From Anaerofustis stercorihominis (GTDB lineage: Bacteria; Bacillota; Clostridia; Eubacteriales; Anaerofustaceae): a DNA stretch of 64,000 nt. The stretch covers positions 1,060-65,059 of the forward strand of contig SVCP01000003.1 in assembly GCA_015058295.1 (NCBI GenBank), given 5' to 3'. Shown here one piece after another: positions 5,809 through 57,659 of this stretch. Under the pieces are notes generated by a model. The model saw only the letters and a list, made by a program, of their open reading frames with translations, ran no database searches and had not been told where the DNA came from. Both the position numbers and the translations under genes were made by a program. Within the stretch, counting starts at the first letter, position 1. Every line of letters starts with the position of its first letter.

Positions 5809-8800
5809 ATGAGAAAGAAATTAATTGCTGTTGTTCTTGTGGTGCTGGCAGTTCTTGCTGTGATGCCGAGTGCGATGGGGGCGACGGATTTTAAAACTGC
5901 ATATGCTAATTCTACCAAAGCAACTGACAGCACGAGTATGTATGGTGAATATATATTAAATGGGAATGTCGAAATAGATTATATCATTCATATTCCGGCA
6001 GGAAAAACATTGAAAATTACCGGAAGTGGAACAATAAAAAGAGGGTCTCTGTTAAAGGCTAAGGGGCTTGATATTTTTCAGCTTGAGTCCGGTTCTAAAC
6101 TGATTATTGGTGAAAAGGATGTAAACAGTACTAAAAAAGATAAAATTGTTATTGATGGGGAAGATGTTGTCGTTCACAGACCATTGATTCTTGCTTACAA
6201 TGGCGGAGATGTTGAACTTAATCATGTTACTCTGAAAAATAACAGAAACAGAGCCACAGCGCAAAATCCTGCAGGTAATTCTTTTTCTGGAGGTGCCATA
6301 TTCATAGCTCCGAGTTATAAAACGGTCAATAAGGTTACAACCGTTGATCGCTTACCTTCACTTTCCCTTTATTCATGTTCAATACAGGATTGTACATCCT
6401 ATTCATACGGTGGTGGTATATACAGCTCTGGGTGCGACATAAATCTTATAAACTCTGAAATTTTGCGATGTAATGCTGTAGGTGGGTTGTATAGTACTAG
6501 TCAAAACACAAATTTAGGGCAGGGTATATTGGAAACCAACGAAGGTCCGTATAAAGGTTCCTATTGGGCTGATCGTGGAGCCGGTGGCGGTATCAAACTT
6601 GCAGGTATCCCATCTTATAATCTGAGACCAACATGCACTATCACAAATTCAAACATATCATACAATACAGCGGTAGGTTACGGTGGCGGCGTTGAGATAA
6701 ACAGTGGTGCTTCTGTTGTGATGAATTCAGGTTCGATGAATAACAATACATCTCTTAACAGAGGGGCAGGAGCATTGCATGTAACTGCTGATGCATCATT
6801 TACTATGAATGGCGGTGAGATGAAGAATAATGTCTGCTATGAAGTAGGCGGCGCTATTCATACATCATATACATGTGTACTCAATCTTAATGCAGGTGTT
6901 ATTGAGAATAATATCGCTTACGGACGTGGTGGCGGTGTCCATATCGATGTAGGCGGAGATTTGGTATTGAATGGTACTGATATTATAAACAATGAAGCAA
7001 GAGATAGCGTCGTTGTTTTGGATAAAGATTCTCAGAGTGAAGTTACTCATACCGAAATAGGTGTTTCAAATATAGTAGGTGGCGTATACACAGATGATAT
7101 AGGTAAGACTTTAAGTAAACCGATATGGCTTGGAAATGCGCAATTCCGCGGCGATGCAGGATATGGCGGCGGTGTACTTATTGACTGTGGAACATGTACA
7201 TTAAATAAAGGAACGATTTCTGGAAATAAAGCGGATATTGGCGGTGGCGGATTATGTTTTGTAATGTTGCTTATAAGCGCTGATAACCGATTTGGTCAGA
7301 CAAGTGCGTGCGCTTTTGAAATGAACGATGGTATTATCACTGAAAACTATGCCGGTGAAATGGGCGGCGGTGTATACCTTATGAAGAATGTTCTTACAGT
7401 AGAGAATATTGCTGAGGCAAACAACCTGGAATATAAAGAAGAAGCCGGTGGGTATCAGTTTTATAAGGATGATGGAACGAAATTTGATATGCTTAAAGCT
7501 GATGGAACAATTTGTACTCCGGCAGAAATAAAAGCGATCATTGATGAAATTCCTGAGGTTGAAATTAAAGGTGGAACTGTAAGTAACAACGATGCAGGTG
7601 AAAAGGGCGGAGCTTTTTATCTTGAAGAAAGTACAATCTTCACAATCAATGGCGGAACAGTTACAGAAAATGAAGCTGTTGACGGCGGTGCTGTTTATGT
7701 AGCTGAAGGTACAGCTAACATTGATGGCGGAACAATTATCAAGAATAATGCAACCAATGATGGCGGTGCCCTTTATGTAAAAGGGATCGTAAATATGACA
7801 GATGGATCTGTTACTGAAAATACAGCAACAGGTAATGGCGGTGCTCTTTACATTGCAGACGGCGAAAACGTAGATGCTGACTTCACAATGGCAAACGGTT
7901 CAATGACCAAAAACATAGCCGCTCTGAATGGCGGTGCGGCATATGTTTCCGGCGGTAACGTTATGATTACTCATGGTACGCTTGATGCAAACGAAGCTGT
8001 CAACGGTGGGGCTGTATATATGGCAGGTGATGCCGACACCACACTTAAAATGGAAAGCGGATATATGCGCAACAATAAAGCTCTTGGAGTAATCGACAGT
8101 GAAGGCAAAAGAGAGGACGGCACAGGAGACGGCGGTGCAATTTATGCTGAAAACGGAAAACTGTATATCGGACTTGAACACTGTACAGTAAATGATTCGT
8201 TACATGCTACAGGATATAATCACCCTGTTATTACAGGCAACTCGGCTGCAGATTCCGGTGGTGGTATAGCTATCGCAAATGAAGGGGAAGTTTACTTCTA
8301 CTGTGGTGAAGCAACAAGCAATAAGGCACTTTATAAAGGTGTAGGTCTTAACGTATTTATGGACGGTGGGACATTCAACCTTTATGACGGTGCAAATATC
8401 GGTGTTCCGAGAGACCCGGATCTTGTAATTATCGGTGGTACGCTGAACAATATGTGTCAGGAAACAAATTATGTGAATCTGTACTATTATATGAAGAATA
8501 CGGATACGGATACTTCTATGGTTGGATTGGCACAGTATGAAGAGTTGATGAATCTTCCGGACGGAGAGTATTTCTGGCCGAAATATGCTGAAGAAAATAA
8601 CTTTGTGTTCCTCGGCTGGACGGCAAAAGGTGCGGCTTCCGGTGAAGCTGATGAATATGTAAGAAACAAAGAACAGTATGTAAATTCGGGTGAACCGGTG
8701 CAGATTCTGGATGAAACAACTCCTGAAACAGACCAGACAAGCATCAACACAAACAGATTGTTTGACGGAACACCAGACAAGACGATACATTTATATGCTT

Positions 8801-9540
8801 TGTGGGCACCGAAAACAAGCACGATAAAATATGTTGACGGACTGACAGGCGATGAACTTGAGCTTGATCCGACAACATATGACTTTACAAGAGAAAGCAA
8901 TGTTCTCGATATCGGACCTGTTCCGAAAGCAGGATATGACCTGATGGGATGGTATATCTTCCAGGATGCAGATCAGAACGCAAACTGGAACGAAACTCTG
9001 AATGATGAAAGCTACGAACCGAGAGAAGCAACGAATTACGAAGGACTTAAATATCTGGAATTGAAAGACAGAAACGGTGTTTTAGAGCTTGAAGCAGGGC
9101 TGACAAACTTCGGATACATCACGCTGATTGCGAAATATGTTCCGGCATACACAGACCTTATCATCGACAAGGCTCTTGAAACAGGCTCAAAACTCGATGC
9201 AAATCAGATGTTTATGTTCAGGATTGTGGGAGATCCTTCGAATGAGGCTCTCAAAGATGTCGATATGATCGTTACGGTTAACGGTGACGGACAGACAACG
9301 GTTAAAGCTTTGCCTGTAGGAACATATACGGTTACGGAAATCGAAAACTGGAGCTGGAGATATACAAAAACGAATGTTGACCAAACAATGCCGATGAATC
9401 TTGCTGATTCGGAAGTTGATTACAAAGTAACCTTCACAAACAAACTCTCCAACCCCTTCTGGCTCTCAGGCGACAGCTATGTGAAGAACTCGTGGAAGAC
9501 GGGAATAGCAACGGATTTTGCCGGAAAACCGATTAATTAA
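5809..9540 (+). CDS. Giant secreted surface protein: parallel beta-helix/polymorphic-type repeats, InlB-like repeats, Cna-B/pilin-like C-terminal domain
   Basis: Signal peptide; repeated GG(A/G)(V/I/L)Y...NGGT...NNxA units; GYDLMGWY and LYALWAPK (InlB-like); MFRIVGD...TVTEIENWSWRY pilin-like domain; C-term NPFWLSGDSYVKNSWKT. Confidence 0.85.
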   Translation: MRKKLIAVVLVVLAVLAVMPSAMGATDFKTAYANSTKATDSTSMYGEYILNGNVEIDYIIHIPAGKTLKITGSGTIKRGSLLKAKGLDIFQLESGSKLIIGEKDVNSTKKDKIVIDGEDVVVHRPLILAYNGGDVELNHVTLKNNRNRATAQNPAGNSFSGGAIFIAPSYKTVNKVTTVDRLPSLSLYSCSIQDCTSYSYGGGIYSSGCDINLINSEILRCNAVGGLYSTSQNTNLGQGILETNEGPYKGSYWADRGAGGGIKLAGIPSYNLRPTCTITNSNISYNTAVGYGGGVEINSGASVVMNSGSMNNNTSLNRGAGALHVTADASFTMNGGEMKNNVCYEVGGAIHTSYTCVLNLNAGVIENNIAYGRGGGVHIDVGGDLVLNGTDIINNEARDSVVVLDKDSQSEVTHTEIGVSNIVGGVYTDDIGKTLSKPIWLGNAQFRGDAGYGGGVLIDCGTCTLNKGTISGNKADIGGGGLCFVMLLISADNRFGQTSACAFEMNDGIITENYAGEMGGGVYLMKNVLTVENIAEANNLEYKEEAGGYQFYKDDGTKFDMLKADGTICTPAEIKAIIDEIPEVEIKGGTVSNNDAGEKGGAFYLEESTIFTINGGTVTENEAVDGGAVYVAEGTANIDGGTIIKNNATNDGGALYVKGIVNMTDGSVTENTATGNGGALYIADGENVDADFTMANGSMTKNIAALNGGAAYVSGGNVMITHGTLDANEAVNGGAVYMAGDADTTLKMESGYMRNNKALGVIDSEGKREDGTGDGGAIYAENGKLYIGLEHCTVNDSLHATGYNHPVITGNSAADSGGGIAIANEGEVYFYCGEATSNKALYKGVGLNVFMDGGTFNLYDGANIGVPRDPDLVIIGGTLNNMCQETNYVNLYYYMKNTDTDTSMVGLAQYEELMNLPDGEYFWPKYAEENNFVFLGWTAKGAASGEADEYVRNKEQYVNSGEPVQILDETTPETDQTSINTNRLFDGTPDKTIHLYALWAPKTSTIKYVDGLTGDELELDPTTYDFTRESNVLDIGPVPKAGYDLMGWYIFQDADQNANWNETLNDESYEPREATNYEGLKYLELKDRNGVLELEAGLTNFGYITLIAKYVPAYTDLIIDKALETGSKLDANQMFMFRIVGDPSNEALKDVDMIVTVNGDGQTTVKALPVGTYTVTEIENWSWRYTKTNVDQTMPMNLADSEVDYKVTFTNKLSNPFWLSGDSYVKNSWKTGIATDFAGKPIN

Positions 9541-9552
9541 GGAGGCGCGAAG

Positions 9553-10158
9553 ATGAAAAAGACGAAAATCAAAGCAATTTCGCTGATGATCTGCCTTCTT
9601 ATGGTGGTTGGCGTGGTTGTCGGCGGAACGGTTGCATTCCTCATGGATGCAAGCGATGAGGTTGAGAATACATTTACTCCTTCAGAAGTAACGACGGATG
9701 TTGTTGAAGATACAGATTCGTTTGAAAATGAAGGAATCAAGAAAGATGTTGTAATCAAAAACACAGGAGACACGGACGCATTCATCAGAGCAGCGATCGT
9801 TGTTACATGGCAGGATGAACAGGGCAATGTTTACGGACAGAAGCCGGTTCCGGGAACGGATTACGAAATCTTGCTGAATGTTGATACAAAAGACAAGGAA
9901 GATGATGACAATAATTCGTGGATTCTTGGAAATGACGGATTCTATTATCACAAGGAAGCGGTTGCAGGAAACAACGATGCAACAGAAGTTCTGATAAATT
10001 CCTGCACAAGCAAAAACACCGAACCGGATTCAAACTACAAACTTTGCGTTGAGATCCTTGGCAGCGGAATCCAGAGTGTTCCGGAGGAAGTTGTTGAGAA
10101 TGTATGGGGCGTAACTGTTGAAAATGGTGTAATTACAGTAGGAGGAGGTAATCAGTAA
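9553..10158 (+). CDS. SipW-dependent TasA/camelysin-like secreted protein 5
   Basis: MKKTKIKAISLMICLLMVVGVVVGGTVAFLMDASDEVENTFTPSEV. Confidence 0.85.
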   Translation: MKKTKIKAISLMICLLMVVGVVVGGTVAFLMDASDEVENTFTPSEVTTDVVEDTDSFENEGIKKDVVIKNTGDTDAFIRAAIVVTWQDEQGNVYGQKPVPGTDYEILLNVDTKDKEDDDNNSWILGNDGFYYHKEAVAGNNDATEVLINSCTSKNTEPDSNYKLCVEILGSGIQSVPEEVVENVWGVTVENGVITVGGGNQ

Positions 10159-11117
10159 TGAAAAATATTAGAAAGATCTCCTCAATTCTGATGGTTATGA
10201 TGCTGATACTCAGCATGGGAAGCGTTTTTGCGGCGGAATCAACGGTTACATTCAAGGGACTTGAAGAAGGATTTGTTTTCGCACCGGGAAGCGGATACAC
10301 GGACACGGATCTTTTCGACGGGTTCAAGAATGTTATGCCCGGTGACAAGCTGACGGAAGAGATAGTTGTTGTGAACGATACAGAGGACTGCGATTTTATC
10401 AATGTTTACATGAAAGCTGTCGCTCACGACGAAGAAGAAAACCCGCTGACATATGACGAAGCATATGAAAATCTTGACGGCAAAGATCAGGCGAAGGTTG
10501 AAGGCACAAGAGATGAAACTGTTGCGACAATGGAAGATTTCCTGGCGCAGTTGAGTCTTAAAGTTTACAACGGAGCTGAGCTTATCGAAGAAAGCGATCT
10601 TTCCGACTTTGTATATCTCGGAACGCTTGTGAACGGCGAAGATCTGAAACTTAATGTTGAGCTTGAAGTGCCGATCACGATGGGAAATGAGTATGCGAAC
10701 AGAGTCGGTGAAGTTGACTGGGTATTCCATGCGGAAGCGATACAGTTTGATACACTTACTGTAAAGAAAGTATGGGATGACGATAACAGCAAGGACAGAC
10801 CTGAATCAGTTAAAGTAAATCTTCTCGGTGACGGTGAAGTTGTTGAAACGGTAGTTCTCAGTGATGAAAATGACTGGACGTATACATGGGAAACACTCGA
10901 TGACAGATATACATGGAGTGTGGAAGAAGTCGTTCCGAAGGATTACAGTGTTTCATACAGAGTGAACGGTGAAGTTGTTACGATCACGAACACAACGACA
11001 CTCATCTTCACAGGACAGGTAGACTGGCCGGTATATGTTCTTGGAACACTTGGTGTAATGATGATGTTCCTGGGAATAATTATCATGAGAAAAAAGAAAG
11101 AGAATGAAAATGTCTAA
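10158..11117 (+). CDS. Cell-wall-anchored surface protein with Cna-B domain and LIFTGQVDWP sorting-like signal
   Basis: Signal peptide; TVKKVWDDDNSKDRPESVKVNLLGDGE Cna-B; C-term LIFTGQVDWPVYVLGTLGVMMMFLGIIIMRKKK. Confidence 0.82.
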   Translation: MKNIRKISSILMVMMLILSMGSVFAAESTVTFKGLEEGFVFAPGSGYTDTDLFDGFKNVMPGDKLTEEIVVVNDTEDCDFINVYMKAVAHDEEENPLTYDEAYENLDGKDQAKVEGTRDETVATMEDFLAQLSLKVYNGAELIEESDLSDFVYLGTLVNGEDLKLNVELEVPITMGNEYANRVGEVDWVFHAEAIQFDTLTVKKVWDDDNSKDRPESVKVNLLGDGEVVETVVLSDENDWTYTWETLDDRYTWSVEEVVPKDYSVSYRVNGEVVTITNTTTLIFTGQVDWPVYVLGTLGVMMMFLGIIIMRKKKENENV

Positions 11118-11694
11118 GAAAGCAGGCATTGCATTCATAATAACGGGGGCAGTGCTGATGATATCGGCACTGCTTCTTTGGTATTCGAATGTAGCGGAAG
11201 ATAATCGTGCGGCTGAGGAAGCCGGAAATGTAATGGAGATAATCCGCCCGATAATAACGGATAAGGTGGAAGAGGAGAAAGAGCTTTCTCCGGAGATGCC
11301 GGTAGTGAAGATAGGCAGTTACGGATATATAGGGTATCTGAAGATAGAAGCTATAGATCTGGAGCTTCCGGTAATAGACAGCTGGTCGTATACGAAGTTG
11401 GAGACGGCACCGTGCAGGCATTTCGGATCGTCGAGGACAGATGATCTTGTAATAGCAGGGCATGATTATAAGGCGCATTTCAAGTATCTGTATAAGATAC
11501 CCATCGGAAGCGAGGCGGTATTTACGGATATGGAGAATATACAGAACAGATATGTACTTGAGAAGATATCAAAGGTAAAGCCGGAGGATGTTGAGGCTGT
11601 ACAAAACAGCGGATATGATCTTGTGCTTTACACCTGTACACCGGGTGGTAAAACAAGGACCGTGGGGTTTTTCAATCGCATTCAACAGGATTAG
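11104..11694 (+). CDS. Sortase (class not assigned)
   Basis: N-terminal TM; IAGHDYKAHFKYL (catalytic His) and LVLYTCTPGGKTR (catalytic Cys/Arg). Confidence 0.88.
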   Translation: MKMSKKAGIAFIITGAVLMISALLLWYSNVAEDNRAAEEAGNVMEIIRPIITDKVEEEKELSPEMPVVKIGSYGYIGYLKIEAIDLELPVIDSWSYTKLETAPCRHFGSSRTDDLVIAGHDYKAHFKYLYKIPIGSEAVFTDMENIQNRYVLEKISKVKPEDVEAVQNSGYDLVLYTCTPGGKTRTVGFFNRIQQD

Positions 11695-11772: not shown

Positions 11773-12016
11773 AACATAATTTCACAATAAAATTGAAAAA
11801 ATCACACGTTTATTTTATATGCGGGGTGAATATGTCCCGCGCATTGAGTGTATGTTTTAATATATAATAGTTATAAAAATAATAATTTATATTGCAAAAA
11901 ATATCCCCCGGAGGGGCTTGCGGGCAGTTTTTTCTCCTGTTAGAATGAAACCATAGAAATTGAGTAAAGACTTTACCTTCAATCGTAAATACAAGATCAG
12001 GTCAGGGAGGAATAAA

Positions 12017-12385
12017 ATGAAAGTTTTTTTTCACGAAGGTCATCACGATTCCGACGGAAACCATGACCACAAACATGTACATACCCATACTCATGATGGG
12101 CTTACTCACACGCATGAGCATGCGCACGAACATTCTCATGATGGAGAGGAACATGTGCATGAAGAATTGAATCTTCATGACAGCAGCAAAGAGATGAAAA
12201 CCCTTAATGCACTTATTGGTCACTGGATCCTGCACGGAGAGGAACATTCAGTATCATATAAAGAGTGGGCAGATAAAGCTAAAACGCATGGATATGAGGA
12301 TGCTGCAGATGCAATAAATGAAGCAGTTGAGCTTCTGGAAAAGGCAAATGAAGCATTCAGAAAAGCTATCTCGTTTATGAGATGA
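12017..12385 (+). CDS. Small His-rich putative metal-binding protein
   Basis: HEGHHDSDGNHDHKHVHTHTHDGLTHTHEHAHEHSHDGEEHVHEE; RBS gggagg before ATG 12017. Confidence 0.8.
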   Translation: MKVFFHEGHHDSDGNHDHKHVHTHTHDGLTHTHEHAHEHSHDGEEHVHEELNLHDSSKEMKTLNALIGHWILHGEEHSVSYKEWADKAKTHGYEDAADAINEAVELLEKANEAFRKAISFMR

Positions 12386-12399
12386 ACAGGAGGGACAAA

Positions 12400-13995
12400 A
12401 TGAAAAGATATAAAAAATTAATCTGCATAATGCTTTGTGCAGTGATGATGATCGGAGCATTTACAGGTTGCTCCGGAAAAGACGAAAAGAATGGAATCGT
12501 GGTTTCTGCAGGAACAACATTGTTCGATGACAGCCTCGATCCCATAAAAGGTGGTATGTATTACGGATATCCGTTTGTAAACGAAGCTCTTCTGAAAGCA
12601 GCTCCGGATTCAGAATATGTGGGATGTCTTGCAACTGACTGGGAAATGGTGGATGCAACTACATATAAGTTCACACTTCGTGAAGGCGTAAAATTCAGCA
12701 ACGGAACAGACTTTACGGCAGAAGACGTAGTATTCACATATGAAACTGTAATGAATAATCAGGCGCTAAATCAGAACGTTGATCTTTCAAGCCTTGAAAG
12801 TGTTACGGCAAACGGAGACTATGAAGTAATATTCAAGCTTAATAAGCCCTATTCACCGTTCTTTGATGCGACAGCAATGCTTCAGATAGTTCCGTCTGAC
12901 AGCTATGATGCAACACTTTTCGATACTATGCCCATCGGAACAGGTGCATACAAGGTAGTTCAGTACGACACAAATCAGCAGATCATTCTTGAGGCAAACG
13001 AAAATTACTGGGGAGAAGCTCCGGACATCGAAAGAGTAACTCTCGTATATATGGACGAATCAGCAGCATTCGCTGCAGCAAAGTCCGGCAATCTTGATAT
13101 CGTAATGGTAAGTGTAAGTTATGCCGACGAAAAGATCGAAGGCATGAAATATGTGGAATTTGACACAATGGACGTAAGAAACATTTCAATGCCCACAGGT
13201 CCTGTACGTACAGTAACAAACCCGAGAAACGGTGAAGAAATTACTGTAGGTAACGATGTAACAAGCGATATTAACGTCCGTAAGGCTCTTGCAATCGGCA
13301 TTGACCGTGAAACTGTAATTAAAAACTGCTTCAACGGAGTAGGTCGTCCCACAGTAAATTATACGGAAAATCTTGTCTGGACAAGTAAAAACGGATACGA
13401 AGACAACCGTAAAGAAGAAGCAAAACAGATTCTCACAGATGCCGGTTGGACAGATACGGACGGAGACGGAATCCGCGAAAAGAACGGCGTAAAGTGTGCA
13501 TTTGATGTATACGCAACAAGCGGAGATGATGACCGTTACCGCCTTGTATCCGCAGTTGCAGTTGAAGCAAAAGAACTCGGTATTGAAATCACGGCAAAAA
13601 CAGCAACATGGGGAGAAATTGAAGTTCTTCAGTATACACAGGGTGTTATCTGGGGGTGGGGACAGTTCTCTCCGACAGTAATCAGATCCCTTTACCACTC
13701 AGACACATTCCTTGTGGGAACATACGATAACGTAGGCGGATATGACAATCCTCAAGTAGATGCTCTTATTGATGCGGCGATCACTGCTGAAAGCCGTGAA
13801 GAGGCAACTCAGAACTGGATCAAAGCACAGGATATTGCAAATGCAGATTATCCGTATCTTTATACGGTAAACATCAGACACGGTTTCTTCATCAGCGATA
13901 AGGTCGATGTGTCTATGGATACGCAGATTCCGCATCCCCACGGACACGGTGCTCCCATTATCAACAATATGGCCGACTGGAGCTGGAAACAATAA
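12400..13995 (+). CDS. ABC transporter substrate-binding lipoprotein, SBP_bac_5 (nickel/dipeptide) family
   Basis: Lipobox GAFTGCSG; LREGVKFSNGTDFTAEDVVFTYE; His-containing C-term IPHPHGHGAP. Confidence 0.9.
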   Translation: MKRYKKLICIMLCAVMMIGAFTGCSGKDEKNGIVVSAGTTLFDDSLDPIKGGMYYGYPFVNEALLKAAPDSEYVGCLATDWEMVDATTYKFTLREGVKFSNGTDFTAEDVVFTYETVMNNQALNQNVDLSSLESVTANGDYEVIFKLNKPYSPFFDATAMLQIVPSDSYDATLFDTMPIGTGAYKVVQYDTNQQIILEANENYWGEAPDIERVTLVYMDESAAFAAAKSGNLDIVMVSVSYADEKIEGMKYVEFDTMDVRNISMPTGPVRTVTNPRNGEEITVGNDVTSDINVRKALAIGIDRETVIKNCFNGVGRPTVNYTENLVWTSKNGYEDNRKEEAKQILTDAGWTDTDGDGIREKNGVKCAFDVYATSGDDDRYRLVSAVAVEAKELGIEITAKTATWGEIEVLQYTQGVIWGWGQFSPTVIRSLYHSDTFLVGTYDNVGGYDNPQVDALIDAAITAESREEATQNWIKAQDIANADYPYLYTVNIRHGFFISDKVDVSMDTQIPHPHGHGAPIINNMADWSWKQ

Positions 13996-14036
13996 ATATC
14001 GGGCTTTCAGTGTCTGAAAATAATAATTCGACTAAA

Positions 14037-14072
14037 ACAAGAAACACCGCTTTTGTTTTGCGGTGCTTCTTA
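14037..14072 (+). other. Intercistronic stem-loop between binding protein and permease
   Basis: aagaaacaccgc-ttttgtttt-gcggtgcttctt. Confidence 0.7.
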
Positions 14073-14095
14073 AGTTAAGGAGATGCTGTAAAAAC

Positions 14096-15106
14096 ATGAA
14101 CAAAAGAATTAAAAACGCAATTTTTGAGAGCGTGCGGATGATACTCCTTCTCATAGCTGTAAGTATCATAGCATTTCTTCTCATAATAAACTCCCCCATA
14201 GATCCCCTCACATCATATGTGGGCCCGGAATCTACGCTTTCCCAGGAAGCAAGGGAAGAGATCGCCGAACATTGGGGACTGTATGATACACCTGCAGAGA
14301 GATTTTTCAGCTGGGTAGGAAATATCCTCAAAGGAGACTGGGGAGATTCAATAACATACAAACGCCCTGTAAAAGATGTCATTTCAGAAAGATTCGGCTA
14401 TTCCTTCGGTCTGATGGCGTGTACATGGGTAATATCCGGGGTACTTGGTTTTATCGTCGGGATAATCTGCGGAATGAGGGAAGGCGGATGGTTTGACAGG
14501 TTGATGAAATCATTCTGCCTTATGGTAAAATCCGCTCCGACGTTCTGGATAGGGCTGTTGTTTCTCGTGATATTTGCCGTTGAGCTGAAGTTATTCCCTA
14601 TCGGCATGGCAGTCCCTCTCGGAAAGCCTGCGAGTGAAGTTACATTCTTTGACAGACTTTATCACATGGCACTTCCCGTAATTACGCTTTCTGTAATAAG
14701 CATGAGCGATATTATGCTTTATACAAGGCAGAAACTTATTGAGATAATAAACAGCGATTTTATCCTGTATGCAAGGGCGAGAGGTGAAAACGAAAAACAG
14801 ATAGTAATGCGTCATGTTATGAGAAATATTGCGCTTCCGGCAATCACCGTTCAGTTTGCTTCCTTCAGCGAACTCTTTGGTGGTATGGCACTTGCGGAAA
14901 ACGTATTTTCATATCCGGGCATCGGTACCGCAACAACAGCTGCGGCTATAAATGCAGATGTGCCCTTACTTTTAGGCATAGCCGTATGCAGCGCGGTATT
15001 CGTATTTGCCGGAAACTTAATGGCGAATATCCTTTACGGAGTATTTGACCCGAGAATAAAGGAGGGTGTAGTAACATATGAGCACACACACGCACACTCA
15101 CACTGA
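14096..15106 (+). CDS. ABC permease (DppB/NikB-like) with C-terminal HTHAHSH
   Basis: BPD_transp_1-type sequence ILYARARGENEKQIVMRHVMRNIALPAITV; C-term YEHTHAHSH. Confidence 0.9.
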   Translation: MNKRIKNAIFESVRMILLLIAVSIIAFLLIINSPIDPLTSYVGPESTLSQEAREEIAEHWGLYDTPAERFFSWVGNILKGDWGDSITYKRPVKDVISERFGYSFGLMACTWVISGVLGFIVGIICGMREGGWFDRLMKSFCLMVKSAPTFWIGLLFLVIFAVELKLFPIGMAVPLGKPASEVTFFDRLYHMALPVITLSVISMSDIMLYTRQKLIEIINSDFILYARARGENEKQIVMRHVMRNIALPAITVQFASFSELFGGMALAENVFSYPGIGTATTAAAINADVPLLLGIAVCSAVFVFAGNLMANILYGVFDPRIKEGVVTYEHTHAHSH

Positions 15107-15953
15107 TGATAATACAAAAAAAGAAAAGCGCTTCGAATTCAACAGACGCAGCTTTGTCAGCATAATGGTGGTATTTGCCATTGTTTATCTTGTGGGCATT
15201 GGGCTGTGGGGGCTTATAATGCCTGAGGAAGCGTATGCTGTTGATTATGGCGCAAAGTTCGTCTCTCCGGAGATTTCTCATCCTTTCGGTACGGACTTTA
15301 TGGGCAGGGATATGTTCAGCCGCTGTATAAAGGCTCTTTCAAACAGTCTTATTATCGGTGTGCTTGCGTCAATATTTTCTTCGTTTATAGCACTGTTTAT
15401 GGGTGTTTCTTCTGCAGTATTCGGCGGATGGGTGGATAAGTTCGTAAACTGGTGCGTTGATTTGTGTCAGGGGCTTCCGCATCTTGTCCTTCTGATACTC
15501 ATATCATTTATGCTGGGAAAAGGCGTGAAAGGCGTTACACTGGCTGTAATATTCACTCACTGGCCGAGCCTTACCCGTATAGTAAGGGCAGAAGTAATGC
15601 AGGTACGTTCTTCACAGTATGTGCAGGCGGCATATAAAATGGGGAAAACAAAGTGGCAGGTAGCATTCGGTCATATTCTTCCGCATGTTATTCCTTCGTA
15701 CATTATCGGGCTTATACTTTTGTTCCCGCACGCTATAATGCATGAAGCAAGTGTTACTTTCCTCGGTTTCGGGCTTCCGAAAGAAATGCCGGCAATAGGC
15801 GTTATCCTTTCCGAGTCAATGGATTATCTCGCCACGGGGAAATGGTGGCTTGCAGTATTCCCGGGGCTTATGCTTCTCGTTGCGGTAATGCTCTTTGATG
15901 TGATCGGAGACAATCTGAAAAAACTCTGGAACCCGGAAAGCGGAAATGAATAG
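15078..15953 (+). CDS. ABC permease (DppC/NikC-like) with N-terminal HTHTHT
   Basis: N-term MSTHTHTHTDD; EVMQVRSSQYVQAAYKMGKTKWQVAFGHILPHVIP. Confidence 0.9.
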   Translation: MSTHTHTHTDDNTKKEKRFEFNRRSFVSIMVVFAIVYLVGIGLWGLIMPEEAYAVDYGAKFVSPEISHPFGTDFMGRDMFSRCIKALSNSLIIGVLASIFSSFIALFMGVSSAVFGGWVDKFVNWCVDLCQGLPHLVLLILISFMLGKGVKGVTLAVIFTHWPSLTRIVRAEVMQVRSSQYVQAAYKMGKTKWQVAFGHILPHVIPSYIIGLILLFPHAIMHEASVTFLGFGLPKEMPAIGVILSESMDYLATGKWWLAVFPGLMLLVAVMLFDVIGDNLKKLWNPESGNE

Positions 15954-15962
15954 GAGCAGTTT

Positions 15963-16889
15963 ATGACAGAAAAAAGAACGATATTAAGTGTAGAAGATCT
16001 GACTGTTGCGTTTAATATGTACCGGAAGGGCGGATTCAAAAAAACGGACCTTGAAGTTATTCATCAGCTTTCCATAGATGTGAAGGAAGGCGAGATCGTG
16101 GCCGTTGTAGGCTCAAGCGGAAGCGGAAAGAGCATTCTTGCGCACAGTGTCCTTCATATCCTTCCGAAAAACGCAAAAGTCGGAGGAAAGATAACTTTTG
16201 ACGGAAAAGAACTTGATGAAAAGTATTGCAGGGAGCTTCTTGGAAAAGATATAGCGTTTATTCCCCAGTCAGTGGATTATCTGGATCCGCTTATGCATGT
16301 TGACAAGCAGGTCATCGGTGTATATGGGACAAAAGAAAGACAGAGAGAAGTTTTCAACCGCTATCAGCTTGACGAAAGAGTGGATAAACTCTATCCGTTT
16401 CAGCTTTCGGGAGGTATGGCCAGAAGAGTGCTTATTTCTTCTGCGGTAATGGAACATCCGAAGCTTATTATTGCAGATGAGCCTACTCCGGGGCTGAATG
16501 TTGAAATGGCAATGGAAACGTTGAATCATTTCAGGGAGCTTGCGGATAAAGGTACGGCTGTACTTATGATAACTCACGACATTGACCTTGCGTTTGAGGT
16601 TGCGGACAGGATCGCAGTGTTTTACGCAGGGACAGTTGTGGAGATCGCTCCCACACTTGATTTTATTATGGGAAGGGGATTCCTCAGGCATCCATACAGC
16701 ATGGCGTTTGTTGATGCTCTTCCTCAGAAAGGATTCAAGCCTATTGACGGAAAACAGCCTTATGCAGGCGATCTTCCGAGTGGGTGTCTGTTTGCTGACA
16801 GATGTCCGCTGAGAGATGATGCTTGTGCAGGTGAAATAGAAATGAGAGATGTCCGTGGCGGAAAGGTAAGGTGTGTCCATGCAACTTAA
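15963..16889 (+). CDS. ABC ATP-binding protein (DppD/NikD-like)
   Basis: GSSGSGKS Walker A, LSGGMARRV signature, LIIADEPT Walker B; oligopeptide/nickel-type C-terminus (RHPYSMAFVDALP, CLFADRCP). Confidence 0.92.
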   Translation: MTEKRTILSVEDLTVAFNMYRKGGFKKTDLEVIHQLSIDVKEGEIVAVVGSSGSGKSILAHSVLHILPKNAKVGGKITFDGKELDEKYCRELLGKDIAFIPQSVDYLDPLMHVDKQVIGVYGTKERQREVFNRYQLDERVDKLYPFQLSGGMARRVLISSAVMEHPKLIIADEPTPGLNVEMAMETLNHFRELADKGTAVLMITHDIDLAFEVADRIAVFYAGTVVEIAPTLDFIMGRGFLRHPYSMAFVDALPQKGFKPIDGKQPYAGDLPSGCLFADRCPLRDDACAGEIEMRDVRGGKVRCVHAT

Positions 16890-17559
16890 AGCAGAAAATA
16901 TCAGTTTCGGTTATACGGAAAAATCCCCCCTTATACTTGATAACATATCCCTCACCGTAGAGAGCGGAGAGAGAGTAGGAATCGTAGCTCCGTCGGGATA
17001 CGGAAAAAGTACCCTTGCGAAGATCCTTGCAGGATACCGTATGCCCACATCGGGACAGGTGCTTCTTGACGGAAAGCCCCTTCCGAAGAGCGGATATTGC
17101 CCTGTTCAGATGATATATCAGCATCCGGAGCAGGCTGTAAACCCCCGCTGGAAAATGGATAAGATACTAAGGGAGTCCTGGGAACCTGACGAAGAAATAC
17201 TCAGAAAAATGGGAATAGAAGATTCATGGATGAGCCGTTGGCCGTCGGAACTTTCCGGAGGTGAGCTGCAGAGATTCTGTATCGCAAGAGTTCTCGGTCC
17301 CGAAACAAAATTCCTCATTTGTGATGAGATAACCACAATGCTTGATGTTATCACTCAGGCACAGATATGGCATCTTCTTTTGGAGATTTCAGAAGAGAGG
17401 AATATGGGTATGATAATAATCACGCATAATTCTGCCCTTGCAAAAAGGGTATGTACGAGAATTGTTGACCTTACAAAGATTAATAATGTTCACTCACATA
17501 CCCACACTCATTTTCATGACCATGAGCATGGTGATGAAGAGGGCCATACACATCATTAG
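16879..17559 (+). CDS. ABC ATP-binding protein (DppF/NikE-like) with His-rich C-terminus
   Basis: APSGYGKST, LSGGELQRF, LICDEI; C-term HSHTHTHFHDHEHGDEEGHTHH. Start uncertain (16873 GTG or 16879 ATG). Confidence 0.9.
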   Translation: MQLKAENISFGYTEKSPLILDNISLTVESGERVGIVAPSGYGKSTLAKILAGYRMPTSGQVLLDGKPLPKSGYCPVQMIYQHPEQAVNPRWKMDKILRESWEPDEEILRKMGIEDSWMSRWPSELSGGELQRFCIARVLGPETKFLICDEITTMLDVITQAQIWHLLLEISEERNMGMIIITHNSALAKRVCTRIVDLTKINNVHSHTHTHFHDHEHGDEEGHTHH

Positions 17560-20586: not shown

Positions 20587-22053
20587 ATGAAATACGTTAC
20601 AGAAGGTTACGAACCGAAGCAAGTTCTTCAGTATTTTGAAGATATCTCAAGAATTCCCCGCGGAAGCGGCAACGAAGCAGGCGTTGCTCAGTATCTTTAT
20701 GACTGGGGAAAAAATCTCGGTCTGGACGCATACAAAGATGAATACAACAACGTAGTCCTCAAGAAAAAAGGCAGTGCAGGCTGTGAAAATCTCCCGCCGG
20801 TTATTCTTCAGGGACATACAGACATCGTAGCTGTAAAACTTCCGGAAAGCGATCATAACTTCCTTACAGATCCGCTTCCGATCTATGTTGAAGACGGTCT
20901 TCTCAAATCAAAAGGCACAACACTCGGCGCAGACAACGGCAACGCTGTTGCATATATGATGGGTGTTCTTTCTGATGATACACTCGTTCATCCGCCTCTT
21001 GAATGTATCTTCACATCAGGCGAAGAAATCGGCCTCATCGGCGCAAACAAACTCTCAAAAGATGCTTACACAGGAAAACGCATGATCAATATGGACGGCG
21101 GCGGACTTGCTGACGGTAAGACAACAGTTTCAAGCGCAGGCGGTCTTGAGCTTACAATGGTTAAAACACCGGTATGGCAGGATGCAAAAGGTGAATTCAT
21201 TTCACTTTATATCCATGGTCTCAAAGGCGGTCACTCTGCAGGTGCTATCGACAAAGGAAGAGGTAATGCAGGCAAACTGATGGCAAGAATCATCAACAAA
21301 GTATCTCTTTCAACGAAGACAGTGGTGGCAACAATGAACGGCGGCGAAAAGATGAATGCAATCATGTCTGACATCAAGGCTGTTATCAGTGTAGAAGACA
21401 AAGCTGTTGCTATGCCTATCATTGAAAAAACTATTGCCGAAATCAAAGAAGAACTCAGAGTTACAGATGAAGGTTTCATCTGTGAAGTTGAAGAACTCTG
21501 CTGTGATAAAGCACCGAAAAAGATGCTTGATGACAAACAGTCAAAACAGCTCGTTCAGTTCGTTTTCACTATCCCCGCAACTGTAAGGGATATGAGCTTC
21601 GAGATCGAAGGTCTTGTTCTTAACTCTAACAACCTTGCTGCAGTTCAGGTATATGAAGATGTAATTAAAGTTCTCACACTCAACCGCAGCGGCGACTCTT
21701 CAAGACAGGAAGCAATGGGCGATGAGATCAAGGCTCTCGCAGATGCATTTGATTTTGAAGTACAGGTTGGCGCAAACTTCTCAGGCTGGAAATTCAAGCC
21801 CGATTCAAAACTCAGAGAAACACACATCCGTCTTGCAAAAGAAGTTCTTGGCGTAGAACTCCAGCTCCACGCAGGTCACGGCGGACTTGAAACAGGCGAA
21901 TTCTACGGCAAAGATCCGGAAATCGACATCATCACATTCGGGCCGAAAGGCGGCGGAGCTCATACTCCGGAAGAATTCCTCGATCTCGCATCATTCAAGG
22001 AAGTTTACGAATATCTCTGCAAACTCCTCGAAGAACTCACAAAAGAAGCGTAA
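20587..22053 (+). CDS. pepD: Aminoacyl-histidine dipeptidase (M20), copy 1
   Basis: ILQGHTDIVAVK, LGADNGNAVAYMMG, GEEIGL, HAGHGGLETGEF. Confidence 0.92.
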   Translation: MKYVTEGYEPKQVLQYFEDISRIPRGSGNEAGVAQYLYDWGKNLGLDAYKDEYNNVVLKKKGSAGCENLPPVILQGHTDIVAVKLPESDHNFLTDPLPIYVEDGLLKSKGTTLGADNGNAVAYMMGVLSDDTLVHPPLECIFTSGEEIGLIGANKLSKDAYTGKRMINMDGGGLADGKTTVSSAGGLELTMVKTPVWQDAKGEFISLYIHGLKGGHSAGAIDKGRGNAGKLMARIINKVSLSTKTVVATMNGGEKMNAIMSDIKAVISVEDKAVAMPIIEKTIAEIKEELRVTDEGFICEVEELCCDKAPKKMLDDKQSKQLVQFVFTIPATVRDMSFEIEGLVLNSNNLAAVQVYEDVIKVLTLNRSGDSSRQEAMGDEIKALADAFDFEVQVGANFSGWKFKPDSKLRETHIRLAKEVLGVELQLHAGHGGLETGEFYGKDPEIDIITFGPKGGGAHTPEEFLDLASFKEVYEYLCKLLEELTKEA

Positions 22054-22217: not shown

Positions 22218-23678
22218 ATGTATAAATATGTTACAGAAGGTTACGAACCGAAACAAGTTCTTCAGTATTTTGAAGATATCTCGAGAATTCCCCGCGGAAG
22301 CGGCAACGAAGCAGGAGTTGCGCAGTATCTTTATGACTGGGGAAAAGCTCTCGGTCTTGATGCATACAAAGACGAACACAACAATGTTGTATTGAAGAAA
22401 AAAGGCAGTGCAGGCTGTGAAAATCTTGAGCCGGTTATCCTTCAGGGACATACAGACATCGTTGCTGTAAAGCTTCCGGAAAGTGATCATAACTTCCTTA
22501 CAGATCCGCTTCCGATCTATGTTGAAGACGGTCTTCTCAAATCAAAAGGCACAACACTCGGCGCAGACAACGGCAACGCTGTCGCATATATGATGGGTGT
22601 TCTTTCTGATGATACACTCGTTCACCCGCCGCTCGAATGTATTTTCACAGCAAATGAAGAAACAGGACTTATCGGTGCTCATGAACTTTCAAAAGATGCA
22701 TTCACAGGAAAGAGAATGATCAATATGGACGCAGGCGGTATGGATCAGACAACTACAGCCGTTTCATGTGCAGGTGGTCTTGAAATGTTTATGACCCAGA
22801 AACCCATCTGGCAGGAAGCAAAGGGTGAGTTTATTTCATTATTCATCCACGGTCTCAAAGGCGGTCACTCTGCAGGTGCTATCAATCTCGGCAGAGGAAA
22901 TGCAGGTAAACTTATTGCAAGAATAATCAACAAAGTATCTCTTTCAACGAAGACAGTAGTTGCGAAGATCAACGGCGGATATATGAGCAACGCAATTATG
23001 TCTGATATCAAAGCTGTCATCAGTGTTGAAGATAAAGATGTGGCTCTCGAAGTTATCGAAAAAGAAGTAAAGATCATCACAGAAGAACTTAAAGTTACAG
23101 ATGAAGGCTTCATCTGTGAGTTTGCTCCCTGTGAAGCTCCGGAAAAGATGCTTGACGATATGCAGAGTAAGAGACTTGTTCAGTTTGCTCTTATGATACC
23201 CTCAACAGTAAGGGATATGAGCTTTGAGATTGAAGATCTCGTTCTTACATCAAACAACCTTGCGGCAATTCAGCTTACAGATGATCAGATCAAGTTCTGG
23301 ACACTTTCACGCAGCGGTGAAGATACACGTCTGTGGGCATTTGGTGATGAGCTTAAAGCATTTGCCGATGTATTCGGATATGATGTTGAAGTTGTTTCAA
23401 GCTATGTGGGATGGAAATATAATCCGGATTCAAAGATGAGAGAGCTTCATATGAAGCTGTTCAAGGAAAAATTCGGCATCGAGTTGAAGATCCATGCAGG
23501 CCACGGCGGACTTGAATGCGGTGAATTCTGCGGAAAAGAACCTGAAATGGATATTATTGCATTCGGTCCCAAGAGTGCAAACGGACATACTCCGGAAGAA
23601 TATCTTGATCTTCAGTCTTTCAAAGAAGTTTATGAATATCTCTGCATGTTCCTCGAAGCACTGACAAAAGAAGCATAA
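22218..23678 (+). CDS. pepD: Aminoacyl-histidine dipeptidase (M20), copy 2
   Basis: Tandem paralogue of 20587-22053; metal-site motifs conserved. Confidence 0.92.
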   Translation: MYKYVTEGYEPKQVLQYFEDISRIPRGSGNEAGVAQYLYDWGKALGLDAYKDEHNNVVLKKKGSAGCENLEPVILQGHTDIVAVKLPESDHNFLTDPLPIYVEDGLLKSKGTTLGADNGNAVAYMMGVLSDDTLVHPPLECIFTANEETGLIGAHELSKDAFTGKRMINMDAGGMDQTTTAVSCAGGLEMFMTQKPIWQEAKGEFISLFIHGLKGGHSAGAINLGRGNAGKLIARIINKVSLSTKTVVAKINGGYMSNAIMSDIKAVISVEDKDVALEVIEKEVKIITEELKVTDEGFICEFAPCEAPEKMLDDMQSKRLVQFALMIPSTVRDMSFEIEDLVLTSNNLAAIQLTDDQIKFWTLSRSGEDTRLWAFGDELKAFADVFGYDVEVVSSYVGWKYNPDSKMRELHMKLFKEKFGIELKIHAGHGGLECGEFCGKEPEMDIIAFGPKSANGHTPEEYLDLQSFKEVYEYLCMFLEALTKEA

Positions 23679-57397: not shown

Positions 57398-57568
57398 ATC
57401 CCTCAGCAGCACTCCACCTTTTTGGTGACAGTATTACGGCTGTTGACCGTAATACCGAAAAACATACCGGCAAATACACTTCTCTCGGCGGTATACCCTT
57501 TTGTCTTTCTTCTTTTCCGTTTGCCGACGGATCCGCAAGACTACTGATGATGACCGCGCCTCTGACTA
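57398..57568 (-). ncRNA. Lysine riboswitch (L-box) upstream of asd
   Basis: Minus strand: gtcAGAGGcGCGg...AGTAgtc...aaaaGGGtataccGCCGAgagaag...actGTCAccaaaaaggtGGAGtGCTgctga, matching L-box core order. Confidence 0.85.
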
Positions 57569-57659
57569 AAGTTTGTTTGTTGATTATAACACATGCTGTA
57601 AGAAAAATAAAGACCTTTTTTACAGAATTTTCTTTTTTTTATGAAAAAGGGAGACGCTT

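Follow-up and report, generated by a model that had tools for sequence, protein, structure and literature searches.

Introduction

The closest described systems are the importers YntABCDE and NikABCDE of the Opp/Nik superfamily, of which Ynt is the chief nickel importer serving urease in Proteus (PMC11026637). On the side of the nickel enzymes, acetogens have CODH/ACS as their key enzyme, and the route by which nickel reaches it is poorly known. CooT is a small CODH-linked nickel-binding protein, and CooJ is a small His-rich nickel-binding protein that is also CODH-linked (PMC6006190). A further His-rich protein, 'hp' (CAETHG_1604), is encoded in the acetogen C1-fixing cluster, adjoins CooT and CODH/ACS, and is conserved in acetogens; its deletion in C. 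autoethanogenum slows growth in rich medium (PMC10230548). In a literature search, mainly outside subscription journals, no publication describing a nickel ABC importer with His tails was found.

We analysed a stretch of 64,000 nucleotides from the gut bacterium Anaerofustis stercorihominis (Clostridia), hereafter the window, in which the original prediction had placed a nickel/peptide-type ABC importer with His-rich ends on four of its five subunits and a His-rich companion protein. This importer has the five-subunit composition of YntABCDE and NikABCDE, and its substrate-binding protein (SBP) is closest to YpYntA. In contrast with these systems, its relatives are linked to lar and CODH/ACS-type genes, and in its own genus it carries cytosolic His tails. 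We favour, with moderate confidence, a Ynt-type importer in which nickel is captured by His-rich elements at the exit and handed over towards CODH/ACS and Lar maturation. The most useful outcome of the analysis is that an unnamed family of CODH/ACS-associated proteins could be connected with a nickel importer.

Results

The operon spans positions 12017-17559 and encodes, in this order, the companion, the SBP, permease 1, permease 2, ATPase 1 and ATPase 2 (open reading frames and Pfam). One SBP_bac_5 protein, two BPD_transp_1 permeases and two ABC ATPases in one operon constitute an Opp/Nik-type make-up. The features are the following.

11903..11924, + strand: GC-rich 22-nt element ATCCCCCGGAGGGGCTTGCGGG, upstream of the operon; also at the equivalent place in the same-genus locus L022 (8534-8555)
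12017..12385, + strand: companion gene; 122 aa, 22 His; ribosome-binding site AGGGAGGA
12400..13995, + strand: SBP, a YntA-like SBP_bac_5 lipoprotein; PF00496 E=7e-74; YpYntA structures 4ofl/3ry3 E=2e-68
13930..13950, + strand: SBP motif PHPHGHG (in IPHPHGHGAP); P519, H520, G521, H522 and H500 nearly invariant (alignment A3)
14039..14071, + strand: stem-loop between SBP and permease 1; hairpins at the equivalent site in L022 and L139
14096..15106, + strand: permease 1, NikB/OppB type, C-terminus EHTHAHSH; PF00528 E=3e-40
15078..15106, + strand: overlap of the permease 1 and 2 genes, 29 nt, CA-rich, encoding both His-containing ends in two frames; identical in L022
15078..15953, + strand: permease 2, NikC/OppC type, N-terminus MSTHTHTHT; PF00528 E=3e-28; GGAGG upstream; conserved in L022
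15963..16889, + strand: ATPase 1, NikD/OppD type with oligo_HPY, without His tail; PF00005, PF08352
16879..17559, + strand: ATPase 2, NikE type, start ATG 16879; PF00005 E=4e-25
17491-17556, + strand: His-rich C-terminal extension of ATPase 2; relatives stop just upstream; His retained in L022
17641..17668, + strand: intrinsic-terminator-like hairpin, consistent with the operon end; such hits are about as frequent in the region as expected from shuffling

The SBP start at ATG 12400 is backed by the ribosome-binding site AGGAGG, the earliest in-frame ATG being at 12382, and the permease 1 start at ATG 14096 was set by comparison with its orthologue. The companion gene is presumably co-transcribed with the importer genes. 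The 22-nt element may be an operator or a 5'UTR element; none was found in the other stretches of the same genome that were scanned, the CODH, lar and C20 loci included. Since the element was found solely upstream of the importer operon, an operator common to the importer, CODH, lar and C20 loci was rejected. Riboswitch control of the operon was also discarded, as no Rfam match reached the gathering score and a potC match was at chance level, and so was regulation by the downstream MerR-like gene, which is not conserved in L022. Elsewhere the window contains a lysine riboswitch (RF00168) at 57399-57572 on the - strand. The sequence of the stem-loop between the SBP and permease 1 differs in L022 and L139.

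Every His string quoted in the original prediction is present where it was placed, and ATPase 1 does lack a tail, as had been said. The His content of the companion tract is not due to chance (binomial P 1e-17), nor is that of the ATPase 2 tail (2e-12), which ends in HSHTHTHFHDHEHGDEEGHTHH; the probabilities are weaker for permease 1 (9e-6), permease 2 (5e-4) and the SBP (1e-3). Five His codons at alternate codons occur at four places in this genome (1.83 Mb, 91 contigs), namely the companion, the ATPase 2 tail, a paralogue of the companion (contig C20) and a reverse-strand site on C91 at which no His-rich ORF was found. The count of His-rich ends on four of five subunits has to be reduced for two reasons. 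The permease 1 tail and the permease 2 head are not independent, as the same 29 nt encode both in different frames. Nor does the SBP motif represent a tail: P519-H520-G521-H522 lies 15-19 residues before the C-terminus and is nearly invariant also where the operons carry no tails, and H500 and H520 align with His residues in YntA. Since the SBP motif is family-wide and the permease ends are a single element, there are two independent His extensions of the transporter, the ATPase 2 tail and the overlap, in addition to the companion.

The closest solved relative of the SBP is the nickel-binding YpYntA. The gene neighbourhoods of related importers also point to nickel, as larE, larB or larC adjoin 6 of the 19 (L014, L015, L016, L021, L135 and L136), and DUF3842 is found beside related importers in three loci (L014, L134 and L137), together with CooT in one of them. 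The best reading of the operon is a Ynt-type nickel importer, and nickel is its best-supported substrate, although we infer the identity of the metal. An importer whose real ligand is a cobalt or zinc chelate of histidine, or peptides, and for which nickel is incidental would be in keeping with the promiscuity of the Opp/Nik superfamily. In NCBIfam searches the SBP and the ATPases score far below the NikA, NikD and NikE equivalog cut-offs (145 versus 600 bits for NikA, 135 versus 333 for NikE), and Opp4-type matches are obtained too. A need for cobalt is plausible, because the host has several UROD/MtaA-like genes, from a family that often uses corrinoids, and CbiM was not found in its genome. 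Nevertheless, we consider this alternative quite improbable, given the proximity of the SBP to YntA, the lar, CooT and DUF3842 genes that adjoin related loci, and the association of the companion family with nickel enzymes.

The host itself encodes nickel enzymes and their maturation proteins: a CODH (TIGR01702), CooC and two ACS genes (L101), larE on contig C79, and pieces of larC at the ends of C79 and C76 (L050, L051). The same-genus genome G001 (JAFXKY, a Eubacteriaceae metagenome-assembled genome from sheep rectum) carries an intact larE-larB-larC set. Among further nickel and cobalt systems, the search of the host genome covered [NiFe]-hydrogenase, CbiM and LarA; [NiFe]-hydrogenase was not detected, and LarA (PF09861) was not found although larE and larC are present.

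The companion is composed of a His-rich N-terminal tract (aa 6-54) and a helical-hairpin domain (aa 56-122) with the motif HWxxHxxxH, and has no signal peptide. AlphaFold2 predicts a two-helix hairpin (pLDDT 97) with three His at i, i+4 and i+8 of helix 1. Profile searches against Pfam, NCBIfam and the PDB gave no credible relative, and a fold search gave only generic helical hairpins with E>0.4, such as halves of rubrerythrin. Its relatives nevertheless form a family, in which the C-terminal domain has invariant L, H, W, H, H, W, A and A residues (alignment A2, 15 members); the companion carries the two marks of this family, HWxxHxxxH and a W at alignment position 29. Of 67 genomes from the order, 34 contain a member, as do 14 of 399 genomes drawn from the whole phylum. 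Across Bacillota their neighbours are cooT, DUF3842, acsB and cooS: CooT lies within 0.7 kb in 11 of the 12 phylum-wide loci (the host genome excluded), most of which also have DUF3842 and ACS, and six Eubacteriaceae-type loci have the arrangement cooS-cooC-acsB-His-rich companion-(cooT)-DUF3842-short companion. In one locus (L096:6697-9618) the companion, tract and hairpin included, is fused to the N-terminus of AcsB in a protein of 973 aa, and in two others (L150, L152) a member is encoded beside a CbiM-type transporter and a PDGLE-domain protein. The window companion adjoins the importer, away from the CODH/ACS locus of the host and from CooT or DUF3842, and was therefore assigned to the family by sequence, not by position. 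Judging from gene context, the companion family is relocated to the importer in the genus of the window.

A second companion paralogue is present in both genus members (L048:5921-6205, on C20, and L097:3887-4186), immediately following the gene of a two-domain SAM methyltransferase, and in neither is a nickel gene close by. The C20 paralogue thus has no CODH/ACS, CooT or DUF3842 neighbour.

The very His-rich tract and the lack of a catalytic domain might suggest that the companion and the tails form a store or detoxification buffer of the Hpn type, chelating excess nickel without delivering it, for which Hpn/Hpn-2 and HspA of H. pylori are precedents (PMC7840056). However, what is conserved across the family is the folded HWxxHxxxH hairpin, which is kept in members of 72-87 aa that have no His tract and are linked to CooT and ACS. 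The conservation of the hairpin without the tract, together with these linkages, argues for a role in maturation and makes a pure store improbable.

The same-genus genome G001 has the operon, the companion and all the tails, and the companion orthologue in L022 is 69% identical. Neither the tails nor the companion were seen in any of the 19 other related loci recovered in searches of the order and the class, permease 1 being readable in 19 and ATPase 2 in 16. The original prediction had taken the absence of tails from close homologues as evidence against it, and the answer is divided: they are kept in the same-genus relative and missing from the 19 other loci, including the closest tail-less relative, G281 (permeases 67%, ATPases 70-72%, SBP 58%). 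This distribution suggests that the tails are a recent addition outside the transport mechanism and, as they are found in two species only, that they are unnecessary for transport in the clade.

The absence of tails outside the genus and the CA-rich, repeat-like permease overlap are what a neutral expansion of low-complexity repeats would leave. This explanation is highly improbable, because no aligned His of the companion or the ATPase 2 tail is lost between the two species, in which the permease genes are 81% identical in DNA, while many His codons have changed synonymously. All 22 His of the companion are retained, with 8 synonymous CAC/CAT changes, and every aligned His of the ATPase 2 tail is retained, with about 5. 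The chance that all 13 changes are synonymous is about 3e-9 by hand arithmetic, if the probability that a CAY codon changes synonymously in a random event is taken as 4/18 (transition weight 4). Furthermore, the overlap forms the longest identical run (36 nt) between the two species within the permease genes. The His tails therefore look recent and selected.

Discussion

The N-terminus of permease 2 lies ahead of TM1 and is positively charged, and the C-terminus of permease 1 follows the last TM, beyond the cytosolic EAA loop characteristic of the family. Given this topology, the cytosolic location of ATPase 2 and the absence of a signal peptide in the companion, all the tails and the companion are placed at the cytosolic exit of the importer. 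The proposal that the His tails form a relay running from the binding protein through both permeases is not supported and was set aside, since the SBP histidines are an ordinary motif shared by the whole family, every tail faces the cytosol and a single DNA element encodes both permease ends. The other part of the original prediction, a nickel importer with a cytosolic His-rich sink, is in agreement with the YntA-like SBP, the lar, CooT and DUF3842 neighbours, the CODH/ACS and Lar genes of the host and the apparent selection on the tails.

In the mechanism that we favour, the SBP would take up Ni(II), probably as a chelate, and the permeases would let it go on the cytosolic side. The cytosolic face of the importer would in this genus have gained metal-binding His extensions, at the C-terminus of ATPase 2 and at the permease 1/2 overlap, which together with the companion would catch nickel at the exit; the companion would then pass it on to enzyme maturation, that is to CooC and CODH/ACS and to LarC. 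The His-studded inner ends and the presence of companion relatives beside nickel enzymes suggest that nickel is caught at entry and passed to these enzymes; we presume that the tails and the companion bind it and that the hand-over runs in this direction. More tentatively, the companion might dock on the His-tailed face so that nickel goes directly to the CODH/ACS and Lar maturases, the HWxxHxxxH family being a general nickel metallochaperone. If so, this family would connect nickel import with enzyme assembly.

Trans-inhibition, as known in ABC importers, works through folded regulatory domains. The position of the tails on an ATPase and on the cytosolic ends of the permeases would also suit a feedback gate, in which the tails sense free nickel and halt transport via ATPase 2 when the cell is replete. 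There is a precedent in H. pylori, where SlyD, a nickel-binding protein of the cytosol, interacts with the permease NiuD and regulates it, but the metal-binding C-terminus of SlyD is dispensable in a nickel-tolerance test (PMC7840056). Unlike folded domains, the tails described here are short, with no detectable partner domain, and they are accompanied by a separate His-rich protein. We regard such a gate as unlikely and retain capture at the exit as the preferred reading.

The companion resembles small proteins known from CODH loci. The His tract is C-terminal in CooJ and N-terminal in the companion, a distinction made by description, and no CooJ chain was among the matches in PDB profile searches with the companion. 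CooT (PF10133) is the constant neighbour of the family, but its sequence is unrelated to that of the companion, which matches no Pfam family. The resemblance to 'hp' lies in gene context, the two being likened by context and description only; 'hp' sits with CODH/ACS, whereas the window's genus has the companion gene beside the importer. By analogy, the companion family may be the 'hp' gene family, which we offer as a lead. It would provide a concrete hypothesis for an acetogen gene that has a deletion phenotype and so far no explanation (PMC10230548). More generally, the locus connects a nickel importer with a widespread CODH/ACS-linked family that has no model in Pfam or NCBIfam, and is a natural example of His tails added to a transporter.

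Several minor observations concern the surroundings of the operon and of its relatives. Upstream of the operon, at 5809-11694, lies a surface-protein cluster consisting of a PMP-repeat-like protein, a Cna_B protein and a sortase. At 20587-22053 and 22218-23678 are tandem paralogues of beta-Ala-His (Xaa-His) dipeptidase, the first above the TIGR01893 cut-off and the second assigned by eye; they could be a source of His near the nickel importer. In another genome (G016), the gene directly upstream of the related SBP (L013:10699-11733) encodes an EamA-type permease that ends in a His-rich tail, about 60 aa long. Finally, nickel-pincer cofactor genes are present in the host, in which the known racemase was not found, and at L014:1600-2891 and L054:8102-9387 LarC is split into two ORFs (LarC1/LarC2), of which LarC1 has a long His-rich stretch.
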